In this document: one piece after another, positions 20,634-35,388 of the stretch | Numbering within the stretch: the stretch's first letter is position 1 | Layout of the letters: every line of letters starts with the position of its first letter | DNA from: Actinobacteria bacterium 21-64-8 | GTDB lineage: Bacteria > Pseudomonadota > Alphaproteobacteria > Sphingomonadales > Sphingomonadaceae | Assembly (NCBI GenBank): GCA_903970225.1 | Contig: CAJCHR010000133.1 | Span: forward strand, 1 to 58,630 | Length of the DNA stretch: 58,630 bases | Reading direction: 5' to 3' | Translations under genes and position numbers: made by a program | The notes under the pieces: model-generated | Told to the model about the DNA's origin: nothing | Databases searched by the model: none | What the model saw: only the letters and a program-made list of their open reading frames with translations

Positions 20634-21290
20634 TTACGCGGCCTTGCTCTGGGTGTTGGCGGGCTTTGCGCGTGGCGCCCGTTTGGCAGGCACCGCGGCA
20701 GACGGACGTTCGGGCTCGGTCTGCAGCATGCGCGTCATCGCCATCGTGCGCGCGGCCTGTTCATAAAGTCCCGAGATCTGCCAAAGCGCCCGCGTCAGCG
20801 CGGACACGTCCTCTACCGATCCTGCCAAGCGGTCGATCGAGGGCAACAGGACTTCGCGGCGCATCGCGGCATAGCGGTCTGTCACGTCACGGCCGAGGTC
20901 GGTAACCTGGTAGGTCGTCTGCCGTGAGGATCCCCCGCTTTTCCGGATCAGCCCAGCCTTGTCGAGCTTGCGCAGCGAATAGAGTATGTTGGAGCTGTCA
21001 TCGCGATTGAGGAACTTGCCGATCTCCGCCGCGCTCTTCGGGCGCTCGTTCATGCGCACGGTCTGCAGCACCGAGACGTCCTGAACCGGCAGTGTTTCCC
21101 CGCTGACATAGTCGTGCAGCGTGGAAGACCAGCGGCCGAACGATTCCGCGATATGGTGGAGCGCGAACTCGAACTCGATGAACGCATCTTCGGACGACGT
21201 CTGCGCCAGGTGCGAATGGTGCAGAAGCGAGCGCGCGGAATCGATGTCCGCACCGTCCTGCCCATTCGCGCCGGCCTTGCGTGTCGTCAT
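20634..21290 (-). CDS. MarR-type winged-helix transcriptional regulator
   Basis: A 218-residue DNA-binding protein. The winged-helix core spans about residues 70-150: VLQTVRMNERPKSAAEIGKF, then LNRDDSSNILYSLRKLDKAG, then LIRKSGGSSRQTTYQVT. This fits the predicted MarR-like regulators of Alphaproteobacteria. The tail (about 185-218) is basic and Ala/Pro-rich (VPAKRAPRAKPANTQSKAA). I chose ATG 21290 because AAAGGAAAG precedes it; a start at 21329 is possible. It lies 148 bp downstream of, and co-directional with, the dioxygenase operon. Confidence 0.82.
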   Translation of the reverse strand: MTTRKAGANGQDGADIDSARSLLHHSHLAQTSSEDAFIEFEFALHHIAESFGRWSSTLHDYVSGETLPVQDVSVLQTVRMNERPKSAAEIGKFLNRDDSSNILYSLRKLDKAGLIRKSGGSSRQTTYQVTDLGRDVTDRYAAMRREVLLPSIDRLAGSVEDVSALTRALWQISGLYEQAARTMAMTRMLQTEPERPSAAVPAKRAPRAKPANTQSKAA

Positions 21291-21438
21291 GAACTTTCCT
21301 TTCTGGCCGCTCTCCGATCGAGCGCTCACACGAAATTACCCGATGATTCGCATCGGAGTAGACGCATTCCGAGTACAGAAGAAGACTACCGCGATGGACC
21401 TTCCAGCAATGCGGAAGGGTTGTCCGGCGCCACACCCA

Positions 21439-22290
21439 TCAGAACGGCCGATCGCCCTTGACCCACATCCGATGCATTTCGCGGACATAACGCGTGTCGT
21501 CGAACAGCGTGCCGGTGTGCAGCGTACAGCGGTTGTCCCACACCAGCACATCACCCACGCGCCACTTGTGGCGAAACACGAAGCGGTCCTGCGTGACATA
21601 TTCGATCAGTTCGTCGATCCGGCGGAAACTCTCCTCCTGATCCCAACCGACGAACCCGCGCGTTCCGCCCGAGACCCACAGCGCCTTGCGACCATCGGCG
21701 GGGTGCGTGCGGATCAGCGGGTGGATAACGTCCGGGTTGGCGGCCAGGACCTCGGCCGAGATCGTCTTGCGGCCATGTTCGCGCATCTGCGCCAGAAACG
21801 CGTAGCTATGGCATAGCTGCAGCGGGTCGAGCCGCGCCTGCTCCTCCGCGCTCAGCGCCTCGTAAGCCGCCACGCCGTCGGCCAGCAGCGTGTCGCTGCC
21901 CTCCGGAGGCACGATCCGCGCATGGAGCATCGTGCACATCACCGGCTCGGCCTTGAAGTTGTGATCGGTGTGCCACCCGATTCCGTCGTTGTGCGCACCA
22001 ACCGGGCGGCCATCCTCGATCCGGTTCGACAGAACATAAATGTCGGGATGCTCGGGCAGCACGAAGTCCTGCACCGTGTGGCCTTCCAACGGCCCGAACG
22101 CGCGGCCGAAGCGGACAAGGTCGGCGGGCGGCATGTGCTGATCGCGCAGCAGGATCGCGCCATGACGATGGAACGCGGAGACCACTTCCGCCAGCAACGC
22201 ATTATCCGCCGCCGCCAGATCGACATCGTGGATTTCGACGCCGAAGCCGGGCTTGAGCTCGCTGGTGGCGAGTGCGTTTGTCACGGGCAC
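21439..22290 (-). CDS. TauD/TfdA-family Fe(II)/2-oxoglutarate dioxygenase
   Basis: A 283-residue dioxygenase. The facial triad is His107-x-Asp109 (GIGWHTDHNF) and a distal His in DNRCTLHTG, with a 2-oxoglutarate-binding Arg region in TRYVREMHRM. Such enzymes hydroxylate or cleave sulfonates, aryloxy acids or related carboxylates using O2 and 2-oxoglutarate. Its start overlaps the stop of the SnoaL-CDGSH gene by 10 bp, so it is the last gene of the Rieske oxygenase operon before marR. The substrate is unknown. Confidence 0.9.
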   Translation of the reverse strand: MPVTNALATSELKPGFGVEIHDVDLAAADNALLAEVVSAFHRHGAILLRDQHMPPADLVRFGRAFGPLEGHTVQDFVLPEHPDIYVLSNRIEDGRPVGAHNDGIGWHTDHNFKAEPVMCTMLHARIVPPEGSDTLLADGVAAYEALSAEEQARLDPLQLCHSYAFLAQMREHGRKTISAEVLAANPDVIHPLIRTHPADGRKALWVSGGTRGFVGWDQEESFRRIDELIEYVTQDRFVFRHKWRVGDVLVWDNRCTLHTGTLFDDTRYVREMHRMWVKGDRPF

Positions 22291-23069
22291 GCCGAGCCGT
22301 CTTTGCCGAGCAGGGCGTAATCGAATTTGAGATTAAGATGCGACCCGTCGCACAGCGGCTTGGTCTTGGAATACCTGCAGCCGCAAACCGCCTGCAACCC
22401 AGTCTCCTCGACCGCAAACGCGGTCGGCTCGACCTTGGTGCCAGCATGAGAGCCATCGCAGAACGGCTGGCTCGCGGACTTGCCGCATTTGCACCAGTAA
22501 TAGGTCTCGCCGGCTTTCAGATCGAGGAAGTAGGGCTGCTTGCGCGTGCCATCGGGAAAGCGCTTCCTGACCCAGTTCTCGCTCGCCGGCGTCGCCATGT
22601 TGAGCTTGAGCTCGACCTTGGTGAACAGCCAGCGCCCGGCCTCACGGCGCACGCGCACGTCGTAAGTCCCGCCGATCCAGTACGCTTCCGGCTCGCCCGA
22701 ATGCTCGTTCGGCAGCGTCGCAGCTTCCCACAGATACCAGAACACCGTCGCCTCATCCGCCCCGGGCGCGTCGAACGTGACTTGCGGCGAGATCATGTTG
22801 TGGAGCGACCACCAGATCTTCTCGCCAGCCACCGCCTTCAGGCCAAGCGCGCACTCGTCGCCGCCGGTGAACGTGCCGAAGCCCTTGCAGGTCCAGGTCG
22901 CATCGTTGGTGAACAGCGGGCGTAGCAGGACTGGATCGTTGCCGGCGTCGCAGGCGCGCGCATACGTGACGATAAGCTCGGCGATATCGGACTTGGCCTT
23001 GAGCTCGGCAAATTCGCCGCGCAGGACGCGCAGGTCCTCGCTCAGCTTTGTCAGCAGATCCGCGCTCAT
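22281..23069 (-). CDS. SnoaL/NTF2-like domain fused to two CDGSH iron-sulfur domains
   Basis: A 262-residue two-part protein. Residues about 20-155 look like a SnoaL_4/NTF2-like fold (IAELIVTYARACDAGNDPVL, RWLFTKVELKL). Residues 190-262 carry two complete CDGSH [2Fe-2S] sites: Cys193-x-Cys195-x8-Cys204-x3-His208 and Cys229-x-Cys231-x8-Cys240-x3-His244. The beta subunits of ring-hydroxylating oxygenases have the NTF2 fold. The gene overlaps the Rieske alpha-subunit gene by four bases (ATGA), so it may be a beta-like partner with built-in electron carriers (inference). The start is ATG 23069; upstream codons lie in the preceding gene. Confidence 0.85.
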   Translation of the reverse strand: MSADLLTKLSEDLRVLRGEFAELKAKSDIAELIVTYARACDAGNDPVLLRPLFTNDATWTCKGFGTFTGGDECALGLKAVAGEKIWWSLHNMISPQVTFDAPGADEATVFWYLWEAATLPNEHSGEPEAYWIGGTYDVRVRREAGRWLFTKVELKLNMATPASENWVRKRFPDGTRKQPYFLDLKAGETYYWCKCGKSASQPFCDGSHAGTKVEPTAFAVEETGLQAVCGCRYSKTKPLCDGSHLNLKFDYALLGKDGSACP

Positions 23070-24301
23070 TCCGCGGCCTCCGCGATCGGGATGAGGCTCT
23101 GCGCATAGGATTTGTAGCGCTTGATCAGCCACGCGTTGAGCTGGGCGAGGGTCTTTTCGGCGGGCGCCCAGCGGCTACGCGGCGCGAGGCGCGAACGCAT
23201 GCCGCGCGCGGTCTGCGTGTTGGCGACGACATCCTGATCGTTGAAGATACCGATCCCTTCCAGCGTGCCCCGAAGCAACGCCGGCGCATTGGGATGAGCG
23301 AGATTGTCCCAAGTCGTCAGCAGCCCGACGCGCAACGTGATGGTCCCCGCCGATTGCGGCAGGATCACGTAGTAGAAGACCACGTCCCCCTGCGCGCCCA
23401 GGAACAGGTTGGGCATGACCGCGGCGAACACGATGCGGCTGCGCTCGGCCTCGGTCAGCGTCGGGATCGGCGGAAACAGCGCTTTCGCGGCGACATTGAA
23501 GCCGCCGTCGAGGTGGGTGAAACGCACCTCGCGATAGATCGCGGCATCGTCGCTATCGTCCCACTCGGTGAAGTCGCAGTTATGAGCGGGCGCGAAATCG
23601 TGAATGCCGGAATGCAGGTAGCTCGTGTGGTACGGCTCCATCGCGTTTTCCTGCATGAACTTCCAGTTCCAAGGGTTGCCGGCCCAGTCGACCGTCGAAA
23701 TCGCGCCGAGTTCGCTCATGCCATGGTTGGCAAGGAGCGCGCTGAGGCCCTGAAGGCGCGGCGCCAACGGCGGCGCCTCACCATCGAGATTGACGAACAC
23801 GAAGCCGTTCCAGGTCTCACTGCGAAAGCGCGGCAGGCAGGCGGTCTTCTTGAGGTCTTCGAACGGCAGCGTACCGTTCATCTCGGGCGCGGCGGTGAGG
23901 TTGCCTTCGAGGTCGTAGCTCCAGGCATGGAACGGACAGGTGAAGTTCTTCGCATTGCCCGCAGCATCGCCCAGCACATGGCCTCGATGGCGACAGACCG
24001 AAGACAGCACCCGCACTTCGCCGTCGCGCCCGCGCACCACCAGCATCGGCTCGCCATTGATCTCGACGGAGACGTAGTCGCCGTTGTCAGGGATCGTGCC
24101 CACGTGCGCAAGCACCATCCAATCACGGTCGAACACCGCACGGCGCTCGAACTCGTACCATTCGGGTGATGTGTAGCACTCGGGCGGCAGCGCCAGCGCG
24201 TCCTTCACATCGCCCAGCGATGCGTCGAGCCGGCCGAGCAGATCTGCCACTATGCCGGTGATTGGCATCTCCGGCAAGGCAGCGTTCACGGTATTCGGCA
24301 T
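23066..24301 (-). CDS. Rieske non-heme iron oxygenase, alpha subunit
   Basis: A 411-residue aromatic-ring-hydroxylating type oxygenase. The Rieske [2Fe-2S] ligands are Cys103-x-His105 and Cys122-x2-His125 (SVCRHRGH, FTCPFHAWSYD). The mononuclear iron site is in ENAMEPYHTSYLH (His225, His230), with a later Asp in the NDQD region. It hydroxylates or demethylates an aromatic or alicyclic substrate. ATG 24301 has AGGAG six bases upstream; GTG 24307 is an alternative. It is the first gene of a coupled operon with the CDGSH fusion and TauD genes, and is divergent from a Rieske ferredoxin. Confidence 0.93.
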   Translation of the reverse strand: MPNTVNAALPEMPITGIVADLLGRLDASLGDVKDALALPPECYTSPEWYEFERRAVFDRDWMVLAHVGTIPDNGDYVSVEINGEPMLVVRGRDGEVRVLSSVCRHRGHVLGDAAGNAKNFTCPFHAWSYDLEGNLTAAPEMNGTLPFEDLKKTACLPRFRSETWNGFVFVNLDGEAPPLAPRLQGLSALLANHGMSELGAISTVDWAGNPWNWKFMQENAMEPYHTSYLHSGIHDFAPAHNCDFTEWDDSDDAAIYREVRFTHLDGGFNVAAKALFPPIPTLTEAERSRIVFAAVMPNLFLGAQGDVVFYYVILPQSAGTITLRVGLLTTWDNLAHPNAPALLRGTLEGIGIFNDQDVVANTQTARGMRSRLAPRSRWAPAEKTLAQLNAWLIKRYKSYAQSLIPIAEAAE

Positions 24302-24347
24302 GGTCACTCCTGAGCAGGACGCTCGCTATGCAGCGAATGAATCATTG

Positions 24348-24365
24348 TGTAAATTACAGTGTAAT
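24348..24365. promoter_or_regulatory. overlapping palindromic operator between Rieske oxygenase and ferredoxin
   Basis: TGTAA-A-TTACA (24348-24358) overlaps ATTACA-G-TGTAAT (24353-24365), both perfect palindromes. They lie in the 118-bp divergent promoter region, an AT-rich island in GC-rich DNA. The shape suits a TetR- or MarR-type dimer; the nearby MarR-like gene is a candidate regulator. Confidence 0.6.
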
Positions 24366-24419
24366 CTATTCGTCAGTTAGACCGCGTGCAAGCGCGATGT
24401 GATCGGAGCCGCGCACGTG

Positions 24420-24731
24420 ATGTTTCTTTGCCCTGCGTCCGATGTGCCCCTCAACGGGTGCAAGCGCCACGCGCGGGGCCGTGCCGGGGCGCTCGCGCTG
24501 TTCAACCTGGATGGACGGTTTCTCGCCCTCGACGATCGCTGCTCGCACGGGGATGCGTCGCTGTCGGGCGGCGATATCGACGACGGCGTAATCTTCTGTC
24601 CGCTTCACGCCGGCGGCTTCGATATCGCCAGCGGCGCGCCGGTTCATCCTCCGTGCGACGAGCCCGTTAGGGCCTACACGGTCGTCGAACGCGATGGCGG
24701 CCTGTGGCTGGAAAGCGATCCCGAACATTGA
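24420..24731 (+). CDS. Rieske-type [2Fe-2S] ferredoxin
   Basis: A 103-residue single-domain Rieske ferredoxin, with ligands Cys41-x-His43 (DRCSHGDASL) and Cys60-x2-His63 (FCPLHAGGFD). It carries electrons from a reductase to a Rieske oxygenase, very likely the divergently encoded alpha subunit. The start is uncertain: ATG 24420 was chosen, while GTG 24399 in frame would add seven residues. No ferredoxin reductase gene is nearby. It is convergent with the MFS gene (13-bp gap). Confidence 0.9.
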   Translation: MFLCPASDVPLNGCKRHARGRAGALALFNLDGRFLALDDRCSHGDASLSGGDIDDGVIFCPLHAGGFDIASGAPVHPPCDEPVRAYTVVERDGGLWLESDPEH

Positions 24732-24744
24732 GTGCGCGCGCCGT

Positions 24745-25989
24745 TCAGGCAGCCCCATTTGCTCGAACGAAATCGGAGGGATAAGGCTTGATCCAAAGGA
24801 ACAACACCGCGTTGTAAAGCAGCATCGCCGCGACGATCCACAGCATCGGCGTATACGTCCCGACCCGATCGAACGCGAAGTTCAGCAGCACCGGCACGAT
24901 CGCGTTGGCCGACAACACCACGGTATATGCGACGCCTGTGATCGTCCCCATCGCGCGCAACCCGAAGTATCGCGAGAGCACATAAGGCAGGACGCTGAAC
25001 TCCGAACCCAGGCCAATCCCGGTCAGCACCCCGGCGAACGTCAGCATGCCGACGCCGTGCACCTGTGTCAGCCCGATCAGGCCCAGCGCCGCGCAGAAGT
25101 AGAACGGCGCCACCGCGCGCGGCCGGTCCGAACGATCGAGCAGCCAGCCGACCAGCGGCTCCCACAAAGTGCAGATCATCGCGAACGCCACGATCACGCC
25201 AGTTGCCTGCCCGAGCGTGAGCCCGCGCGCGATCAGGATCGGCACGGTGGTCGAAAACACGCCGGTCAGCGCGCCGCCGCCCAGCGCGACGCTGCTCAGG
25301 ATCAACCAGAGCAGCGGAGATCGAAACGCTTCCCCCGCGGTCATGCCCGGCAACACGTCCTCTTCGTGTTCCGCTTTGGCGAGCGCGGGCGGTGGCCGCA
25401 GCGTGAACCAGGCCACCGGCAGCGCGACCAGCAGCACGATCGCGCCGATGATCGCCAGCGATCCGCGCCAGCCATGCGTCGCGAGCAACGTCGCCGCGAC
25501 GACCGGCATGATCGTCGAGCCGAGCCCGTTGCCGATCCCGCCCGTCAGCCCCATCCAGAAACCACGGGTCTCGTTCAGCCATTCGGAGATCAGCTTGCTG
25601 AGCACCATCGTGCTGGGCAACGATCCGACCGCGCCGGTCAGCGCGAACAAGGCGTAGAAGCCAAGCACGGTCGGCGGCGCGGCCGAGAGCGCGAGGATCG
25701 ACAGGCCGAGCAGCAGGAAACCCACGAGCAGCACCGGCCGGGTGCCGTACCGATCGGCCAAGCGCCCCGTGATCGGGAACGTCGCCGCCGTCGCCAGCGA
25801 CATCGCGGTGAAACCGCCCGCCACCGCGGTGCGGCTCCAGCCGAACTCGTGCGCGATGGGGACCAGGAACGTCCCGAACGTCGCCGCGACGGTGGGCGTG
25901 ATCCCGAGCATGTTGCCGATCGTCGCGCCGGTTGCGAGGACCGCGATCTGGCTCGCGCGGGGTTTGGGTCTCGCTTGCAGTGCGTGCAT
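24745..25989 (-). CDS. MFS transporter (monocarboxylate / oxalate-formate antiporter-like)
   Basis: A 414-residue carrier with twelve predicted membrane segments. The MFS loop signature is GRLADRYGTRPVLL between TM2 and TM3, and a second is GWLLDRSDRPRAV after TM8. The pattern, including GWSRTAVAGGFTAMSLA, fits the MCT/OFA group that moves small organic acids. I chose ATG 25989 (MHALQARPK); the open frame continues upstream without homology. It is divergent from the PfkB kinase gene and probably serves the local oxygenase pathway. Confidence 0.87.
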   Translation of the reverse strand: MHALQARPKPRASQIAVLATGATIGNMLGITPTVAATFGTFLVPIAHEFGWSRTAVAGGFTAMSLATAATFPITGRLADRYGTRPVLLVGFLLLGLSILALSAAPPTVLGFYALFALTGAVGSLPSTMVLSKLISEWLNETRGFWMGLTGGIGNGLGSTIMPVVAATLLATHGWRGSLAIIGAIVLLVALPVAWFTLRPPPALAKAEHEEDVLPGMTAGEAFRSPLLWLILSSVALGGGALTGVFSTTVPILIARGLTLGQATGVIVAFAMICTLWEPLVGWLLDRSDRPRAVAPFYFCAALGLIGLTQVHGVGMLTFAGVLTGIGLGSEFSVLPYVLSRYFGLRAMGTITGVAYTVVLSANAIVPVLLNFAFDRVGTYTPMLWIVAAMLLYNAVLFLWIKPYPSDFVRANGAA

Positions 25990-26161
25990 GCCGGCGCTCC
26001 AATGTGGTAAGCCGCGAATGTTGCATGCGCCAAAATGCCTGTCTATCGTGATTGGAAGTACACCGCATTTTACAGGGCATTCCGCAGAGATTCGGGCGTT
26101 CACCGACAAGTGGGAACAAGCGAACCATGCGAATGAAGAGCGAAGGTTCGGCAGGAGCATC

Positions 26162-27079
26162 ATGAGCGTCATCGTTTTCGGCTCCCTCAATCTCGACATC
26201 GTCCTCCGGTTGCCGGCACGGGCGGCGTGGGGCGAAACGCTGCTCGTCGATGCGCAAGCGACGCACGTCGGCGGCAAGGGACTCAATCAGGCCGTCGCCG
26301 CGGCGCGGTTCGGATCGGTCACGGCGATGGCGGGCGCAACCGGCGACGACAGTGCCGGCGAGACATTGCGCGCCGCACTCGGCGAAGAGCAGATCGCGCT
26401 CGGCAGCGTCGAAGTGCTGGCTGGCGTTCCCAGCGGGCGTGCGACGATCCTCGTCGAGCCCGGCGGCGACAACATGATCGCAGTCGAGCCCGGCGCCAAC
26501 CGGCTTGCGCGCGCGGCAGGCGCCGCATCGCTGCTGGCCGGGGACTCGCGGGTCATCCTCGCGCAGTTCGAAACCGACCTCGACGAGACCGCGGCGCTGT
26601 TCGCCCGGCCCGAGGCGCAGGCTCTCCGCAAGATCGTGAACCTCGCGCCAGCCATCCCGGGCGGCGAGCGGTTCTTCGATCTCGCCGACATGCTGATCTT
26701 CAACCAGACCGAGTTCGCCACCTACCTCGCGCTCGATCGCGAGCCCGAAAGTGTCGAGGATCTGCTCGTGGTGCAGCGTAAGCTGACCCGGCCGAACCAG
26801 GCCGCGGTGGTGACGCTAGGAGCGGCAGGCGCGGTCGCGGTGTGGGCCGACCGGACGATCGTTTCGGCCGGCTTTCCGGCATCCGATATCGTGGATACCG
26901 CCGGCGCCGGCGACTGCTTTTGCGGGGTGGTCGCGGCCTGCGTCGATCAGGGCATCGGCCCCGAAGAGGCGCTGCGCTACGCCAACGCGGCCGCATCGCT
27001 TTCGGTCAGGAGCGCGGGCGCGGCTCCGTCGATCCCGCGCCGCGACGCGATCGAGGCGTTCCTGGCCGCTTCCGGCTGA
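26162..27079 (+). CDS. PfkB-family sugar kinase (ribokinase-like)
   Basis: A 305-residue kinase. The N-terminal motif is FGSLNLDIVLRLP, followed by the substrate loop GGKGLNQAVAAARFG and the ATP/anion-hole motif DTAGAGDCFCG with its catalytic Asp. It phosphorylates a furanose sugar or nucleoside. The GGKGLNQA loop is closest to ribokinases, where GGKGANQA is typical. The start ATG 26162 follows GGCAGGAGC. It sits 51 bp before a TauD-type gene in the same direction. The reason for a sugar kinase here is unclear. Confidence 0.88.
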   Translation: MSVIVFGSLNLDIVLRLPARAAWGETLLVDAQATHVGGKGLNQAVAAARFGSVTAMAGATGDDSAGETLRAALGEEQIALGSVEVLAGVPSGRATILVEPGGDNMIAVEPGANRLARAAGAASLLAGDSRVILAQFETDLDETAALFARPEAQALRKIVNLAPAIPGGERFFDLADMLIFNQTEFATYLALDREPESVEDLLVVQRKLTRPNQAAVVTLGAAGAVAVWADRTIVSAGFPASDIVDTAGAGDCFCGVVAACVDQGIGPEEALRYANAAASLSVRSAGAAPSIPRRDAIEAFLAASG

Positions 27080-27130: not shown

Positions 27131-27988
27131 ATGCTGCAGACTACGACGATCGAGACCGCCCCCAGGGGCGAAACCGGCCCCCGCACGATCGGGGTCAAGC
27201 CGCTCAATCCCACGATCGGCGCGGAGATCTCGGGCGTGGACCCGAGCCAGCCGATCCCCGAGCAGACCGCCACCGAGCTGCGGCAGGCGATCGCCGATCA
27301 CATCGTGATCTTCCTGCGCGACACACCGCTCGATTTCGCCGCGCATCAGCGTCTCGCCGCAGTATTCGGCGAAGCACACATTGCGCCGAGCACGGCCGCG
27401 TGGCGGGTCGAAGGCTTTCCCGAGATCACCAAGATGCACGCCGACGGTACCTCGAAGTACGTCGCGGGCGAGAACTGGCATTCGGACATGAGCGCCGATC
27501 CCGAGCCGCCGATGGGCTCGGTCCTGTACCTCCACACGATCCCGACGCTCGGCGGCGATACCGTGTTCGCGAACATGTACGCCGCGTGGGACGCCTTGTC
27601 GGACACCATGCGCGCGATGCTCGATGGGCTGACCGCGACTCACGATGCGGTGAAGGCGTTCGGCGCGATCGTCGCGCGCGACATGGAACTGCCCTGCACC
27701 TCGCACCCGATCGCGCGCATCCATCCGGTGACCGGTCGCAAGGCGCTTTACGTCAACCCCGGCTACACCACGAAGATCGACGGCATGGCCGAGGCGGAAA
27801 GCGACGCGCTGCTACGGTTCCTCTACGAGCATATCAAGGATCCGCGCTTTCAGTGCCGCTTCACCTGGAGCCCGCATGCGACCGCGATCTGGGACAACCG
27901 CTGCAGCCAGCACGTCGCGATCTGGGATTATTTCCCGCAAGTCCGCTCGGGCTTCCGCATCCAGGTCAAGGGTGAGCGACCCGCCTGA
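27131..27988 (+). CDS. TauD/TfdA-family dioxygenase (taurine dioxygenase-like)
   Basis: A 285-residue Fe(II)/2-oxoglutarate dioxygenase. It has IGAEISGVD near the N-terminus, the metal motif His117-x-Asp119 (ENWHSDMSAD), a distal His in RCSQHVAIWDY, and a C-terminal Arg segment RSGFRIQVKGERP. Compared with the other TauD-like genes here, it is closest in layout to true TauD (GGDTVFANMYAAWDAL). The substrate may be a sulfonate or carboxylate. It follows the kinase gene by 51 bp and may be co-transcribed. Confidence 0.92.
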   Translation: MLQTTTIETAPRGETGPRTIGVKPLNPTIGAEISGVDPSQPIPEQTATELRQAIADHIVIFLRDTPLDFAAHQRLAAVFGEAHIAPSTAAWRVEGFPEITKMHADGTSKYVAGENWHSDMSADPEPPMGSVLYLHTIPTLGGDTVFANMYAAWDALSDTMRAMLDGLTATHDAVKAFGAIVARDMELPCTSHPIARIHPVTGRKALYVNPGYTTKIDGMAEAESDALLRFLYEHIKDPRFQCRFTWSPHATAIWDNRCSQHVAIWDYFPQVRSGFRIQVKGERPA

Positions 27989-30936: not shown

Positions 30937-31767
30937 ATGATCGCCCCGTTCTCAGGCTACGGCCTCGGCCTTCGCAAACCGCATTACGCCGATTTTCTCG
31001 GCGCGCGGGTCGACGTCGATTTCGTCGAGGTGATCTCGGAGAATTTCATGGTCGACGGCGGCAGGCCGCGCCAGATCCTGCGCGACGTGCGCGCGCGCCA
31101 CCCGGTCGCGCTGCACGGCGTGTCGATGTCGCTCGGCTCCGCCGATGGCCTCGACGGCGCCTATCTTGCACGGCTGCGCGCGCTGGTCGACGAGATCGAG
31201 CCGTTGTTCGTCTCCGATCACCTGAGCTGGTCGCGGATCGAGGGCTTCAATTCGCACGACCTGCTGCCGCTGCCTTACACCAACGAGGCGCTCGATCTGG
31301 TTTGCGACAATGTCGCGCGCGCGCAGGATGCGCTGGGGCGCGAGATGCTGGTCGAGAACCCCTCGACTTATATCGACTTCGTTCCCGCCGACATGACCGA
31401 GTGGCAGTTCCTCGGCGCGCTGTCAGAGCGCACCGGCTGCGGGCTCTTGCTCGACGTCAACAACGTGTTCGTCAGCGCGACCAACCACGGCTTCGATCCG
31501 CTCGCCTATCTCGACGGGGTTCCGCACGACCGCGTCCGTCAGATCCATCTCGCCGGGCACAGCCAGGGCCGGGAACTGCTGATCGATACGCACGACCAGC
31601 CGGTTCCCGCGTCGGTCTGGGACCTTTACGCGCACGTCATGCCCCGGCTCGGCCCGGTCGCGACGATGATCGAGCGCGACGACGATATTCCCCCGCTGGG
31701 TGAACTGCTCGCAGAGCTGTCGATAGCGCGGAATCTGGGCGATCAGGCACTGGCGCAAGCGGCATGA
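30937..31767 (+). CDS. bufB: BufB, MNIO-family (DUF692) peptide-modifying iron enzyme
   Basis: A 276-residue multinuclear non-heme iron oxidative enzyme with a TIM-barrel fold. Probable metal ligands are His60 (ALHGVS), His95 (SDHLSW), Glu140 (LVENPSTY), Asp173/Asn175 (LLDVNN), His204 and His208 (IHLAGH), Asp217/His219 (DTHDQP) and Glu246 (MIERDD). In characterised bufferin systems this enzyme converts core cysteines of BufA to thiooxazole-type groups. It acts in the cytoplasm before export. Translation of bufC is coupled through an ATGA overlap. Confidence 0.93.
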   Translation: MIAPFSGYGLGLRKPHYADFLGARVDVDFVEVISENFMVDGGRPRQILRDVRARHPVALHGVSMSLGSADGLDGAYLARLRALVDEIEPLFVSDHLSWSRIEGFNSHDLLPLPYTNEALDLVCDNVARAQDALGREMLVENPSTYIDFVPADMTEWQFLGALSERTGCGLLLDVNNVFVSATNHGFDPLAYLDGVPHDRVRQIHLAGHSQGRELLIDTHDQPVPASVWDLYAHVMPRLGPVATMIERDDDIPPLGELLAELSIARNLGDQALAQAA

Positions 31768-32519
31768 GCCTGCTCGCACTCCAGCGCGATGTCCGCTCAT
31801 GGCTCATCGACGAAGACGCGGCCGCCGCGATCCGCATCGGCGAAGGGGCCGCGCCGGGCCTGCGCGTTCACCAGAACAATTATCGCTCCCAGCTCGTGGC
31901 CTGTCTCGAGGAAAGCTTTGGTCGCACCCGCGACTGGATCGGCGGCGAGGCCTTCCACGAAGCGGTCGTCGCGCATATCGATCGCGTGCCGCCGAGCAGC
32001 TGGACGCTCGACGCCTATCCGCGCGATTTCCCCGCGACGCTGGCGATGCTCTATCCCGATGACGCCGAAGTCGCCGAGCTGGCGTGGCTCGACTGTGCCT
32101 TGGGGGAAGCGTTCGTCGGGCCCGATGCCGAGGCGCTGACCGCGGACAGCCTCGCCGATGTCGACTGGGATCGTGCGATCCTGCGCTTCTCGCCGACTCT
32201 CGATATCGCCGATCTCACCACCAATGCGACCGCGATCTGGTCCGCGCTCACCGCCGACGAAGTGCCGCCCGCGGTGGAGCTCCTTCCCGAAGCCGGGGCG
32301 ATTCTGGTCTGGCGGCAAGGGATGGCCGCGCAGTTCCGCGCGATCGATCGGTCGGAGCAACGCATACTGCTGTCGGCGCGCGCCGGATTGTCATTCGCGG
32401 ATCTCTGTCTCGCGACGGTCGATGCGCATGGCGAGGAGGAAGGCATCGCCCGCGCGGGCGCGATGCTGGGGCAGTGGATACGCGACGGCCTGATCAGCGC
32501 TATCGACATCGCCGAGTGA
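31764..32519 (+). CDS. bufC: BufC, DUF2063-family partner of the MNIO enzyme
   Basis: A 251-residue protein. The N-terminal DUF2063 domain (about 1-95) starts MSLLALQRDVRSWLID and contains VHQNNYRSQLVACLEESFGR and a motif near YPRDFPATL. The rest is a less conserved C-terminal domain. BufC-type proteins act as recognition partners that bring the precursor to BufB; the old label of DNA-binding domain is not supported by function. It overlaps bufB by four bases and ends 21 bp before the convergent TetR gene. Confidence 0.9.
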   Translation: MSLLALQRDVRSWLIDEDAAAAIRIGEGAAPGLRVHQNNYRSQLVACLEESFGRTRDWIGGEAFHEAVVAHIDRVPPSSWTLDAYPRDFPATLAMLYPDDAEVAELAWLDCALGEAFVGPDAEALTADSLADVDWDRAILRFSPTLDIADLTTNATAIWSALTADEVPPAVELLPEAGAILVWRQGMAAQFRAIDRSEQRILLSARAGLSFADLCLATVDAHGEEEGIARAGAMLGQWIRDGLISAIDIAE

Positions 32520-32540: not shown

Positions 32541-33116
32541 TCAACGGATCGCGTGCCGGCTCGTGGCCGGCGTGAGCACCAGCAACTCCAGATATTGGGC
32601 GACCAGCTCGATCGGGTAGTCGCGGTCCTGGCGCAGCCACCACGCCAGGATCTCGAACATCGAACTCACCACGAACGATGCGACCATGTCGGCAGGCAGC
32701 TTTGGATTGATCCGCTCCTGCCGACCGGCCCATTCCTGAGTCAGCTTGATGAACTCATCGCGCATCACCCCCGAGGCGCCGGTGGTGAGAAGCGCGGTCC
32801 AGAGCGTACGATGCGCCTCCACATGATCGCAGATCGCCCTGGCGGAAGCGGCTGCGTTGTTCCGATCGCTGCGCAGGCTCATCAGCGATGCCATCCGCGC
32901 AAGCTCGTCCCTCGCGACATCGGCCAGAAGCTCGTCCCGGGTGGCGAACTGCCGGTAGAAAGTGGGAAACGTGACGCCGGCCCGCAGCGCGATCTCACGC
33001 ACTGGGATCTGCTCGAACGGCTTTTCCTCGATCAACAGCAGCAGCGCGTGTCGCAAGGCCGCACGAGACCGCAGCGACCGCGCATCGCTCGATCTTGACG
33101 CTCTCGGTTCGGTCAA
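32541..33116 (-). CDS. TetR-family transcriptional regulator
   Basis: A 191-residue regulator. The helix-turn-helix is at about residues 37-60 (VREIALRAGVTFPTFYRQFA), followed by an all-helical ligand domain. The C-terminal part (ALLTTGASGVMRDEFI, EILAWWLRQDRDYPIE) is clearly paralogous to the TetR gene at 43.6-44.2 kb. The only start compatible with the frame is TTG 33116: a stop codon precedes it. The gene is divergent from the molybdopterin oxidoreductase, with TTACG/CGTAA half-sites between them that it may bind. Confidence 0.88.
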   Translation of the reverse strand: MTEPRASRSSDARSLRSRAALRHALLLLIEEKPFEQIPVREIALRAGVTFPTFYRQFATRDELLADVARDELARMASLMSLRSDRNNAAASARAICDHVEAHRTLWTALLTTGASGVMRDEFIKLTQEWAGRQERINPKLPADMVASFVVSSMFEILAWWLRQDRDYPIELVAQYLELLVLTPATSRHAIR

Positions 33117-33133
33117 TTACGTTACGCCCGTAA
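33117..33133. promoter_or_regulatory. candidate TetR operator
   Basis: TTACG-CC-CGTAA (33122-33133) is a perfect palindrome, preceded by a third half-site TTACG (33117-33121). It abuts the TetR start codon and lies about 85 bp upstream of the oxidoreductase start, so it could control both genes. Binding is inferred. Confidence 0.55.
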
Positions 33134-33216
33134 AGAAAATAGAAGCAGTCCCTCCGATGCCTGCGCTCGCTTTCGAACACAAGCACGCGAGAAGGTCACG
33201 ATCCGGGAGAATGGGC

Positions 33217-35388
33217 ATGGAAGTCAAACCGTCGGTCTGCCGCAACTGTCCGTCGATGTGCCCGATCCTGGTGACGCTCGATGACGGTGTCGTCGTGAAG
33301 GCGGAGGGCGATCGCGACGCTCCGCTCTACCAGGGCTATATCTGTCCCAAGGGCCGCGCCATTCCGCAGCAGTACGGGCGTCCGGGCCGCCTCCTGCACA
33401 GCCTTAAGCGTCTGCCCGACGGATCGCGCGTTCCGATCTCCAGCGAGGCTCTTGTGGAGGAGATCGCCGATCGGCTGTCGGGCATGCTGGCGCGGTACGG
33501 CCCGCAGGCGGTCGCGATATTCATGGGGATGTCGGCGCTCGAGCAGCCGGCGGTGTCGGGCATGCTGTTCGCCTTCGCCGGGGCGATCAAGACGCCGCTC
33601 ATCTTCACCAATGCGACGATCGACCAGCCAGGGCTGTCGATGGCGCAGGCGCTTCACGGATCGTGGGGCGGGGGGCGTGTTCATCCCGACCAGTGGGACA
33701 CGCTGCTGCTGGTTGGCGGCAATCCCGTGATCTCCAAGCAGCATCTGATCCAGAACCCCAGCCACCAGCTGAAGGCGCTGACGCGGGCGGGCGCGAGGCT
33801 GGTGGTCATCGATCCGCGCCGCAGCGAGACCGCGCGCCGGGCCGCGGTGCACCTGCAGCTCATTCCCGGCGAAGATCCCACCGTGCTGGCCGGGCTGATC
33901 AACCTGATCTTCGAACTGGACGGCGTCGATCACGATTTCGCGCGGACTCATGCGGAGGGCATCGACGCGCTGCGTGAAGCAACGCGCCGATTCACGCCCG
34001 ATTACGTCGCCGCCCGCGCCGGCATCGACGCCGATGACCTGCTGGCCGCGGCCCGCATCCTCGTCGAAGCGCGGACCGGCGATACCGCGCTCGGCGTCGG
34101 GCCGAGCATGGCGACGCGCGGCACGCTGTCGAGTTATCTTGCGCTGTGCATCCAGACGTTGCGCGGGTTCTGGGCGCGAGAGGGCGATCCGGTGTCGCGG
34201 CCGCGCGTGCTGATGCCGCCCGCCGACGCCAGGGCGCAGGCATACGCGCCGCGCCCGGCATGGGGGTTTGGTCTGAAGACATCGGTCAGGGGCTTGCAGC
34301 AGACCGCGGCGGGCATGCCGGCCGGCGCCTTGCCCGAATTGATGCTCACCGCGGGCGATGACCGTGTGCGCGCGCTCTTTTCGCATGGCGGGCCGATGTA
34401 TTCCTGGCCGCAGCAGAGCCGCACGATCGAGGCGCTGAGCGCGCTCGATCTGTTCGTCACGCACGACATCGAGCTTTCGGCGACCTCGGCGATGGCGGAT
34501 TACGTGGTCGCGACCAGGCTGCCGCTCGAAGTTCCTGCGTTTTCCCAGGTCAACGAGATCTCGGGGCTGGTCCATCCGGGCTACAGCTGGACCGAGCCTT
34601 ACGCGATCTATCAACCAGCCATTCTGGAGCCTCCCGAAGGTTCGGATCTCATGGAATCGTGGCAGCTCTATTACCGGCTGGCACAGAAGCTGGGCCTGAC
34701 GCTCCAGATGGTCGATTTCGCGGGTGCCAACCCGCCGATCGCGCTCGACATGACAATCGAGCCCACGACCGACGATCTTTACGAGATCATCTGCACGGGC
34801 TCCACGGTGCCGCTCTCCCAGGTAAAGGATCACCCTCACGGCGGGCTGTTCGATGAAGCGCGAAAGACCGTTCTTCCCGGCGAACCCGGCCACGATGCGA
34901 AACTTCAGCTGGCCGATCCCGCGATGCTCGCGGAGCTCGGCGGCGTGCGCGACGAGGATGTGCTGGAGCGCCGCAAGACCGATGCGGACTACCCGTTTCT
35001 GCTCATTCCGAAGCGCATGCAGAACAGCACCAACTCCATGCCGCGCGTCGATGGCATCGTCCGGACCGGGTACAACCCCTTGTTCATGCATCCCGACGAC
35101 ATGGCGCGATCGAAGCTCGAACCGGGCGCGATGGTCCGGTTGAAGACGCGCCACGGAACCGCCGTCGGCTTCGTGGAAGCGGATCCCGATCTTCGCCCCC
35201 GCGTGGTGGCGATGACTCACGGCTTCGGCGCCAGGCACGGCGTTGCCTACGAGCCGAGGCTACACGGTACCAACGTCAATCAGTTGCTCAGCTGGGAGGA
35301 CGACAACGATCCCTATCACGGCATGCCGCGTATGGGTGCAGTCCCGATCTCGGTTCTTTCCGCGGAATTGCAGGCGGTCGAGCGATAG
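33217..35388 (+). CDS. molybdopterin-dependent oxidoreductase (DMSO reductase family)
   Basis: A 723-residue enzyme. An N-terminal [4Fe-4S] motif Cys8-x2-Cys11-x3-Cys15...Cys43 (VCRNCPSMC, YICPKG) precedes the bis-MGD domains, with LLVGGNPVISKQH and VIDPRRSETARRA. A C-terminal dinucleotide-binding domain contains LKTRHGTAVGFV. No Tat signal is present, so it is cytoplasmic. ATG 33217 has GGGAGA seven bases upstream; ATG 33157 would add 20 unsupported residues. No partner ferredoxin, cytochrome or chaperone gene is adjacent. The reaction is unknown, perhaps a hydroxylation or hydration of a catabolic substrate. Confidence 0.9.
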   Translation: MEVKPSVCRNCPSMCPILVTLDDGVVVKAEGDRDAPLYQGYICPKGRAIPQQYGRPGRLLHSLKRLPDGSRVPISSEALVEEIADRLSGMLARYGPQAVAIFMGMSALEQPAVSGMLFAFAGAIKTPLIFTNATIDQPGLSMAQALHGSWGGGRVHPDQWDTLLLVGGNPVISKQHLIQNPSHQLKALTRAGARLVVIDPRRSETARRAAVHLQLIPGEDPTVLAGLINLIFELDGVDHDFARTHAEGIDALREATRRFTPDYVAARAGIDADDLLAAARILVEARTGDTALGVGPSMATRGTLSSYLALCIQTLRGFWAREGDPVSRPRVLMPPADARAQAYAPRPAWGFGLKTSVRGLQQTAAGMPAGALPELMLTAGDDRVRALFSHGGPMYSWPQQSRTIEALSALDLFVTHDIELSATSAMADYVVATRLPLEVPAFSQVNEISGLVHPGYSWTEPYAIYQPAILEPPEGSDLMESWQLYYRLAQKLGLTLQMVDFAGANPPIALDMTIEPTTDDLYEIICTGSTVPLSQVKDHPHGGLFDEARKTVLPGEPGHDAKLQLADPAMLAELGGVRDEDVLERRKTDADYPFLLIPKRMQNSTNSMPRVDGIVRTGYNPLFMHPDDMARSKLEPGAMVRLKTRHGTAVGFVEADPDLRPRVVAMTHGFGARHGVAYEPRLHGTNVNQLLSWEDDNDPYHGMPRMGAVPISVLSAELQAVER

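Follow-up and report, generated by a model that had tools for sequence, protein, structure and literature searches.

A SnoaL-CDGSH fusion gene at a Rieske oxygenase locus

The window analyzed here is a stretch of 58,630 nucleotides that makes up positions 1 to 58,630 of contig CAJCHR010000133.1 (assembly GCA_903970225.1, Sphingomonadaceae); its own genome is labeled G000, and other genomes and loci are given G and L numbers. Two adjacent genes on its reverse strand form the subject of this report, one encoding a Rieske non-heme iron oxygenase alpha subunit of 411 residues (23066..24301) and the other a 262-residue protein (22281..23069) in which a SnoaL_4 domain is fused to a type 6 CDGSH tail. 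The stop codon of the alpha gene and the start codon of the fusion gene share four bases (ATGA), and a Rieske-type ferredoxin gene (24420..24731, forward strand) is transcribed divergently from them. An initial annotation, made from the sequence alone, had described a SnoaL-like domain and two complete CDGSH sites in the overlapping gene, and Pfam together with a 14-member alignment bears this out, down to the exact numbering of all eight ligand residues; the divergent ferredoxin that it named is likewise real.

The alpha subunit has Pfam matches to Rieske (4.6e-20) and Ring_hydroxyl_A (2.5e-23), and this domain together with the CxH..CxxH Rieske motif identifies it as a Rieske oxygenase alpha. 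Residues C103, H105, C122, H125, H225, and H230 are invariant across eight aligned rows, and the nearest solved relative is the carnitine monooxygenase CntA. A structure model of the alpha subunit had a mean pLDDT (predicted local distance difference test) score of 63, which was too weak for use.

The tail of the fusion protein matches zf-CDGSH in two stretches (Pfam, 3.4e-18), and its best match in the PDB is MmCISD (3tbn, 3.3e-23, residues 175-246), followed by human CISD3. With two CDGSH sites in one chain and homology to MmCISD, the tail is by homology a type 6 CISD, for which a [2Fe-2S] cluster is predicted. From the residue numbers, site 1 (C193, C195, C204, H208) lies at 22446..22493 and site 2 (C229, C231, C240, H244) at 22338..22385, both on the reverse strand. 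The two sites differ in their conservation among the 13 complete members of the family, as site 2 is complete in all of them, while the four ligands of site 1 are present in 10 and canonical in nine. The tenth, L108, has four alignable ligands with spacing one residue shorter and CDPAH replacing CDGSH. Site 1 lacks all four ligands in L105 and L106 and lacks C204 in L003, where no obvious frameshift lies behind the loss; on the SnoaL tree, the state of site 1 requires two changes if L108 is counted as kept and three if it is counted as altered. Because site 2 is always kept and site 1 lacks ligands in 3/13 members, these alignments indicate that one cluster, at the C-terminal site 2, suffices in some members. 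The same losses weaken the initial proposal of two electron relays as a requirement for two in series, while an electron relay by site 2 is possible. A survey of CISD proteins notes that 17% of the proteins of types 5 and 6 carry one degenerate motif (PMC3174974).

At the other end of the protein, residues 22-152 match SnoaL_4 (4.4e-19). A Pfam scan of five fusion proteins and one unfused relative listed SnoaL_4 and no match to the oxygenase beta subunit family Ring_hydroxyl_B (PF00866) at E up to 10, with scan filters that drop most matches above about 0.1, and membership of the SnoaL part in that family was rejected on this result. A PDB search with a 13-member SnoaL profile instead found LdpA (5.4e-11), LinA (5.8e-10), BaiE (9.9e-10), and a putative scytalone dehydratase (2.1e-5), and a profile of the whole protein gave no oxygenase beta subunit among the best 60 of 64 PDB matches. 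The AlphaFold model of the fusion has a mean pLDDT of 68.5, with the SnoaL part mostly good, and Foldseek and VIA-align on this model placed LdpA, LinA, ketosteroid isomerase, and BaiE among the best rows; no beta subunit occurs among the best 50 VIA-align rows, which we do not take as proof.

Residues Y36, D41, and H90 are invariant in 14/14 fused members, and among unfused SnoaL relatives the Asp and His are found in 26/26 and the Tyr in 17/26 (one scanned relative, L091, gave no row for this count). Alignment with BaiE (4l8o) sets Y36, D41, and H90 opposite a Tyr, an Asp, and a His, which we take to be the catalytic Y30, D35, and H83 of that enzyme. The profile and fold relationships and the conserved Asp, His, and Tyr place the SnoaL part in the SnoaL_4 lyase lineage. 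From the sequence and the model, a lyase-type role appears more likely for this domain than that of a purely structural beta subunit, and we lean slightly toward such a role in absolute terms as well. LdpA has been described as a deformylase of the NTF2 family, with a quinone methide as its proposed intermediate (PMC12997858).

Occurrence of the fusion and its linkage to the alpha gene

With the window included, we count 14 fusion genes in 12 genomes, 13 of them complete; the gene in L009 ends with its contig at the start of the CDGSH part, and its tail is presumed. A scan of genome contigs found seven relatives of the fusion, in a Sphingomonadaceae metagenome-assembled genome (MAG), Novosphingobium profundi F72, Novosphingobium sp. 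Rr 2-17, three gammaproteobacterial MAGs, and one alphaproteobacterial record truncated where its contig stops. Whole-genome searches added fusions in G509, G451, G456, and G718, and G962 and G964 each proved to carry a second copy; duplicate loci (L011/L003, L109/L004, and L107/L005) are counted once. The fusion is therefore found in members of two bacterial classes, the Alpha- and Gammaproteobacteria, and it is rare. A full fusion occurs in 2/397 genomes of the window's family, in 1/296 of its order and 1/339 of its phylum (the window's own genome in both cases), and in 1/369 of the class of G962, which is G962 itself with two copies; these sets overlap, and scoring in the last three was restricted to each genome's best candidates. 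CDGSH-only matches are the majority among the matches listed for the 369-genome scan. CDGSH matches in the window genome are limited to the two sites of the fusion protein, and a plasmid search matched 15 records, none spanning 80% of the query. An origin of the fusion by chance or assembly error is unlikely, because 13 more fusion genes were found and L003, L004, and L005 show the 4-base overlap as well (with start codons as chosen in this analysis).

A Rieske alpha gene adjoins the fusion in 14/14 loci, which upholds the coupling proposed in the initial annotation, and the survey of genomes found no fusion beside unrelated genes without a Rieske gene. The order is alpha followed by fusion on the same strand in 12 of the 14, with gaps of -4 to +166 bp; the fusion precedes the alpha in L126 and the two stand head-to-head in L125, with both alphas confirmed by Pfam. 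No full fusion was seen away from a Rieske alpha in the 397-, 296-, 339-, and 369-genome scans. As a control, eight CDGSH-only loci (L023-L030) were scanned over their ~3.2 kb, with no match to SnoaL or to a Rieske alpha. The alpha and fusion genes are very likely functionally tied. The neighborhood comparison set aside seven matches of the 397-genome scan (three SnoaL-only and four CDGSH-only), the weak SnoaL matches of the genus scan, and most further matches of the whole-genome and 369-genome scans.

The fusion was found only beside one subfamily of alphas. In the window's genus, 43/195 genomes contain a match to the alpha with an E-value of 1e-50 or lower; six of these 43, the window counted, have an alpha of at least 69% identity, and the fusion adjoins it in 6/6. 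The remaining 37 have alphas of 36-40% only, and in the 14 such loci examined there was no SnoaL or CDGSH match within ~1.5 kb. G718 carries two alpha paralogues (56%, L101, and 47%, L103) without a fusion nearby and a third alpha with one. In the SnoaL tree, all fused domains group together in one clade (support 100/100), so the fusion event itself probably arose once. In the alpha tree, the label "fused" needs at least three changes, two of them forced by starred branches, a pattern that reads as one gain with losses or as more than one gain. This tree was built by a quick method from 69 rows (78 were found, and nine were dropped as duplicate loci or truncated), and the alphas of L012-L022, which lie only partly inside their stretches, were left out. 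As a separate observation, L110, L112, L113, and L114 hold alpha2-type Rieske genes without the fusion near genes for LigB-type ring-cleavage dioxygenases.

We also compared 26 unfused SnoaL relatives, which were picked by similarity to the fusion and are not a census of SnoaL_4; larger stretches, of the L163/L164 type, were taken for three other genomes. A Rieske alpha lies within the fetched stretch for 25 of the relatives, and the remaining one (L131) is truncated where its stretch ends. The 15 alphas from such loci that were placed in the tree form a separate branch (support 94), and in L012-L022 a Rieske ferredoxin gene follows the SnoaL gene in 11/11. L127 and L129 have two alphas per single SnoaL gene within the stretch, and both kinds of gene occur twice in L162; the ratio does not discriminate between an enzyme and a subunit role for SnoaL. 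A ~112-residue protein is encoded after the alpha in L013, L127-L130, L132, and L162-L164 among the loci checked, and was not found in the 14 fusion loci. Members of this family were seen in L129 (3278-3616 and 4968-5339), L128 (8524-8865 and 11741-12082), L101 (5499-5861), L162, L163, and L164; they often stand 1:1 with a Rieske alpha and gave no Pfam match in the two members scanned, and the protein is a possible candidate for an unrecognized oxygenase partner.

Electron supply and gene neighborhood

Rieske oxygenases draw electrons from flavoprotein reductases and ferredoxins. Rieske matches fall at 20 places in the window genome, against one GR-type reductase (Reductase_C) and no match to FAD_binding_6, with the caveat that this is a draft of 525 contigs with 5.5% contamination in which a gene may have been missed. 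Many of its oxygenases probably share one donor, and given 20 Rieske places against one detected reductase, a local reductase is not expected; the CDGSH tail is therefore not needed to explain the absence of one. The initial suggestion that the tail replaces a missing reductase is weakened by this genome-wide pattern, which is the usual situation of a shared donor. A precedent is Sphingobium yanoikuyae B1, in which, according to the accessible text, one donor set is common to several oxygenases (PMC1847435).

The divergent ferredoxin (Pfam Rieske 6.9e-15, scanned from an upstream GTG at 24399) had been put forward initially as a possible electron donor to the fusion, and only part of the family has it. 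Its gene is kept in 8/14 fusion loci, the window counted, and was not found in the five gammaproteobacterial stretches L006, L007, L008, L125, and L126; in L102 the one match is weak (25%) and falls within another oxygenase-like stretch. The intergenic region between the alpha and ferredoxin genes (24302..24419) contains a 9-nt inverted repeat, 89% complementary, at 24350-24368, a possible operator.

On the other side, the fusion stop is overlapped by the start of a gene for a TauD/TfdA-family Fe/2-oxoglutarate dioxygenase (21439..22290, reverse strand, Pfam 1.1e-62), which adjoins the fusion in 7/14 loci, the window counted; L112 and L113 also carry 57-62% relatives of this protein. A winged-helix regulator follows on the same strand (20634..21329, Pfam HTH_27, MarR-like), with relatives in the L004, L005, L102, and L105 stretches. 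Beyond the ferredoxin lie an open reading frame for an MFS transporter (24745..26286, reverse strand, Pfam MFS_1), whose real start is probably internal and which has relatives of 44-61% in six further Sphingomonadaceae fusion loci, and two forward-strand genes, for a PfkB-family carbohydrate kinase (26168..27079, Pfam 7.4e-43; relatives in L003, L004, L005, L105, L106, and L108) and a second TauD-family dioxygenase (27131..27988, Pfam 8.9e-63; 61-77% relatives in L003, L004, L105, L106, and L108). Further along the window, we noted an MbnB/TglH/ChrH-family enzyme, of the kind that modifies ribosomally synthesized and post-translationally modified peptides, followed by a DUF2063 protein (30937-32519), and a molybdopterin oxidoreductase gene (32962-35388).

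Two gammaproteobacterial MAGs have a different set of neighbors, with a VAO-type FAD oxidase, a cytochrome c, and a UbiD decarboxylase encoded downstream of alpha and fusion (L006:6879-10482 and L008:6766-10292), assigned by Pfam in L006 and by similarity in L008. The neighbors in L006 suggest an aromatic or phenolic substrate.

Proposed role and relation to known systems

We consider it quite plausible, and hold tentatively, that the fusion is an oxygenase accessory protein with a probable lyase domain and one essential NEET cluster that exchanges electrons with the oxygenase or gates it. The protein would be dedicated to the Rieske oxygenase and sit on or near it in a physical complex. Its SnoaL domain, of NTF2 fold and lyase/dehydratase lineage, is probably still catalytic and would carry out an elimination on either the substrate or the hydroxylated product, while the NEET cluster at site 2 may exchange single electrons with the oxygenase or the ferredoxin, or gate the step through its redox state. 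The parts of this proposal differ in strength. We are confident of the partnership between alpha and fusion; that site 2 is redox-active and exchanges electrons with the oxygenase or gates it is conceivable, and we put it forward with reserve. The most specific form, in which the tethered NEET (3Cys-1His) cluster is the physiological donor or gate of a mononuclear-iron Rieske oxygenase, with hydroxylation and elimination coupled in one complex, strikes us as rather unlikely.

Several points weigh against the accessory role. The CDGSH part of the AlphaFold model is of low confidence, and lyases of this fold are not known to require electrons. The chemistry of the alpha subunit does not require the fusion, since the 56% and 47% paralogues in L101 and L103 and the 36-40% alpha2 group have no fusion nearby. 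Oxygenase Rieske clusters have potentials of about -100 to -150 mV, and donation from a NEET cluster at about -30 mV would be uphill unless its potential were tuned, so that downhill donation is doubtful. For CISD3, a single cooperative wave has been measured at about -31 mV (PMC10937110), and mitoNEET lies at about -30 mV at pH 7.4 (PMC9490426). In favor of the accessory role, mitoNEET is able to take electrons from FMNH2 and carry them (PMC9490426).

Among the alternatives is the view of the initial annotation that the fusion is the beta subunit of an alpha3beta3 oxygenase, with two CDGSH relays fed by the divergent Rieske ferredoxin. Oxygenase beta subunits do have an NTF2/SnoaL-like fold in general, yet this does not make the SnoaL part a beta subunit. 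The 1:1 adjacency with alpha and the 4-base overlap in four loci count in its favor. In cumene dioxygenase, moreover, the docking place of the Rieske ferredoxin is the boundary of alpha and beta, close to alpha K117 (PMC9361823), and K118 of the window is aligned with this residue. The K118 match does not discriminate between readings, however, because CntA has a Lys there too, and K or R occupies the position in 7/8 aligned rows, including those from loci without a local ferredoxin. The Pfam and PDB negatives reported above, the nearest structures (LdpA, LinA, and BaiE), the related alphas with no SnoaL nearby, and the missing site 1 ligands all speak against this explanation, which we regard as improbable. 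The fusion might instead be a pathway lyase with a sensor, in which SnoaL acts on the oxygenase product and CDGSH senses redox state, O2, or NO and passes no electrons to the oxygenase. The lyase lineage and the invariant Tyr, Asp, and His fit this, alphas sometimes outnumber the unfused relatives (L127 and L129, but not L162), and CISD3 is described in the accessible text as a two-state redox-switched protein (PMC10937110); by itself, however, this does not explain why the fusion is found only beside this alpha subfamily, and we consider it unlikely.

There are two further explanations. Oxidized NEET clusters are transferable to apo-proteins, as stated in the available text (PMC10937110), and the CDGSH tail could accordingly be a cluster keeper that donates to or repairs the Rieske cluster of the adjacent alpha, but such a task would not require a SnoaL lyase, and the genome has 20 Rieske places against CDGSH matches in this fusion only; there is little to recommend it. 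That the fusion is an operon neighbor only, acting elsewhere in the pathway with a structural CDGSH part, agrees with the occurrence of alpha relatives without it, but is most improbable given linkage in 14/14 loci, across two classes and three gene orders, with no unlinked copy seen.

Among the papers listed in a literature search that left most subscription papers outside its reach, we found no description of a CDGSH protein with a Rieske oxygenase, of a SnoaL protein of this kind with one, or of a SnoaL-CDGSH fusion, although such proteins may have been annotated earlier under generic names. A fusion found only beside one subfamily of Rieske alphas, in two bacterial classes, in which one cluster is always kept and some lineages have lost the other, is a testable two-gene system, and it occurs in the named strains Novosphingobium profundi F72 and Novosphingobium sp. 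Rr 2-17. Both the electron supply of Rieske oxygenases and the function of bacterial CDGSH proteins could be addressed with it, and if the NEET cluster were indeed a donor or gate, bacterial type 6 CISDs would gain a defined electron partner.

Each half of the system resembles something known. The match between CntA and the alpha subunit covers only the N-terminal half, and the Glu of the E-x-Y-H motif is aligned; CntA works with a reductase and is not known to have a SnoaL or CDGSH partner. The alpha subunits of the alpha3beta3 cumene, biphenyl, and naphthalene dioxygenases also match the window alpha by sequence, and in both cases a gene for an NTF2-fold partner is adjacent; unlike the beta subunits of those enzymes, the window partner gives no listed Ring_hydroxyl_B match in Pfam. 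LdpA, LinA, and BaiE, nearest to the SnoaL part by profile and fold, are not known to have an Fe-S tail. MmCISD (3tbn) and human CISD3 have tandem CDGSH sites like the fusion tail, in which site 1 has lost ligands in 3/13 members. CISD proteins have been sorted into seven types; type 6 has nothing but the tandem motifs, in type 5 a glutamate synthase domain is attached, and the types as described in the accessible text do not include a SnoaL fusion (PMC3174974). A parallel in gene content is offered by the separate-SnoaL clusters of sphingomonads and gammaproteobacteria (L012-L022, L127-L132, and L162-L164), in which a SnoaL_4-like gene also stands beside an alpha, in many cases with a Rieske ferredoxin, but in which the SnoaL protein is unfused, the 15 alphas placed in the tree belong to another branch, and the ~112-residue protein is added in the loci checked.

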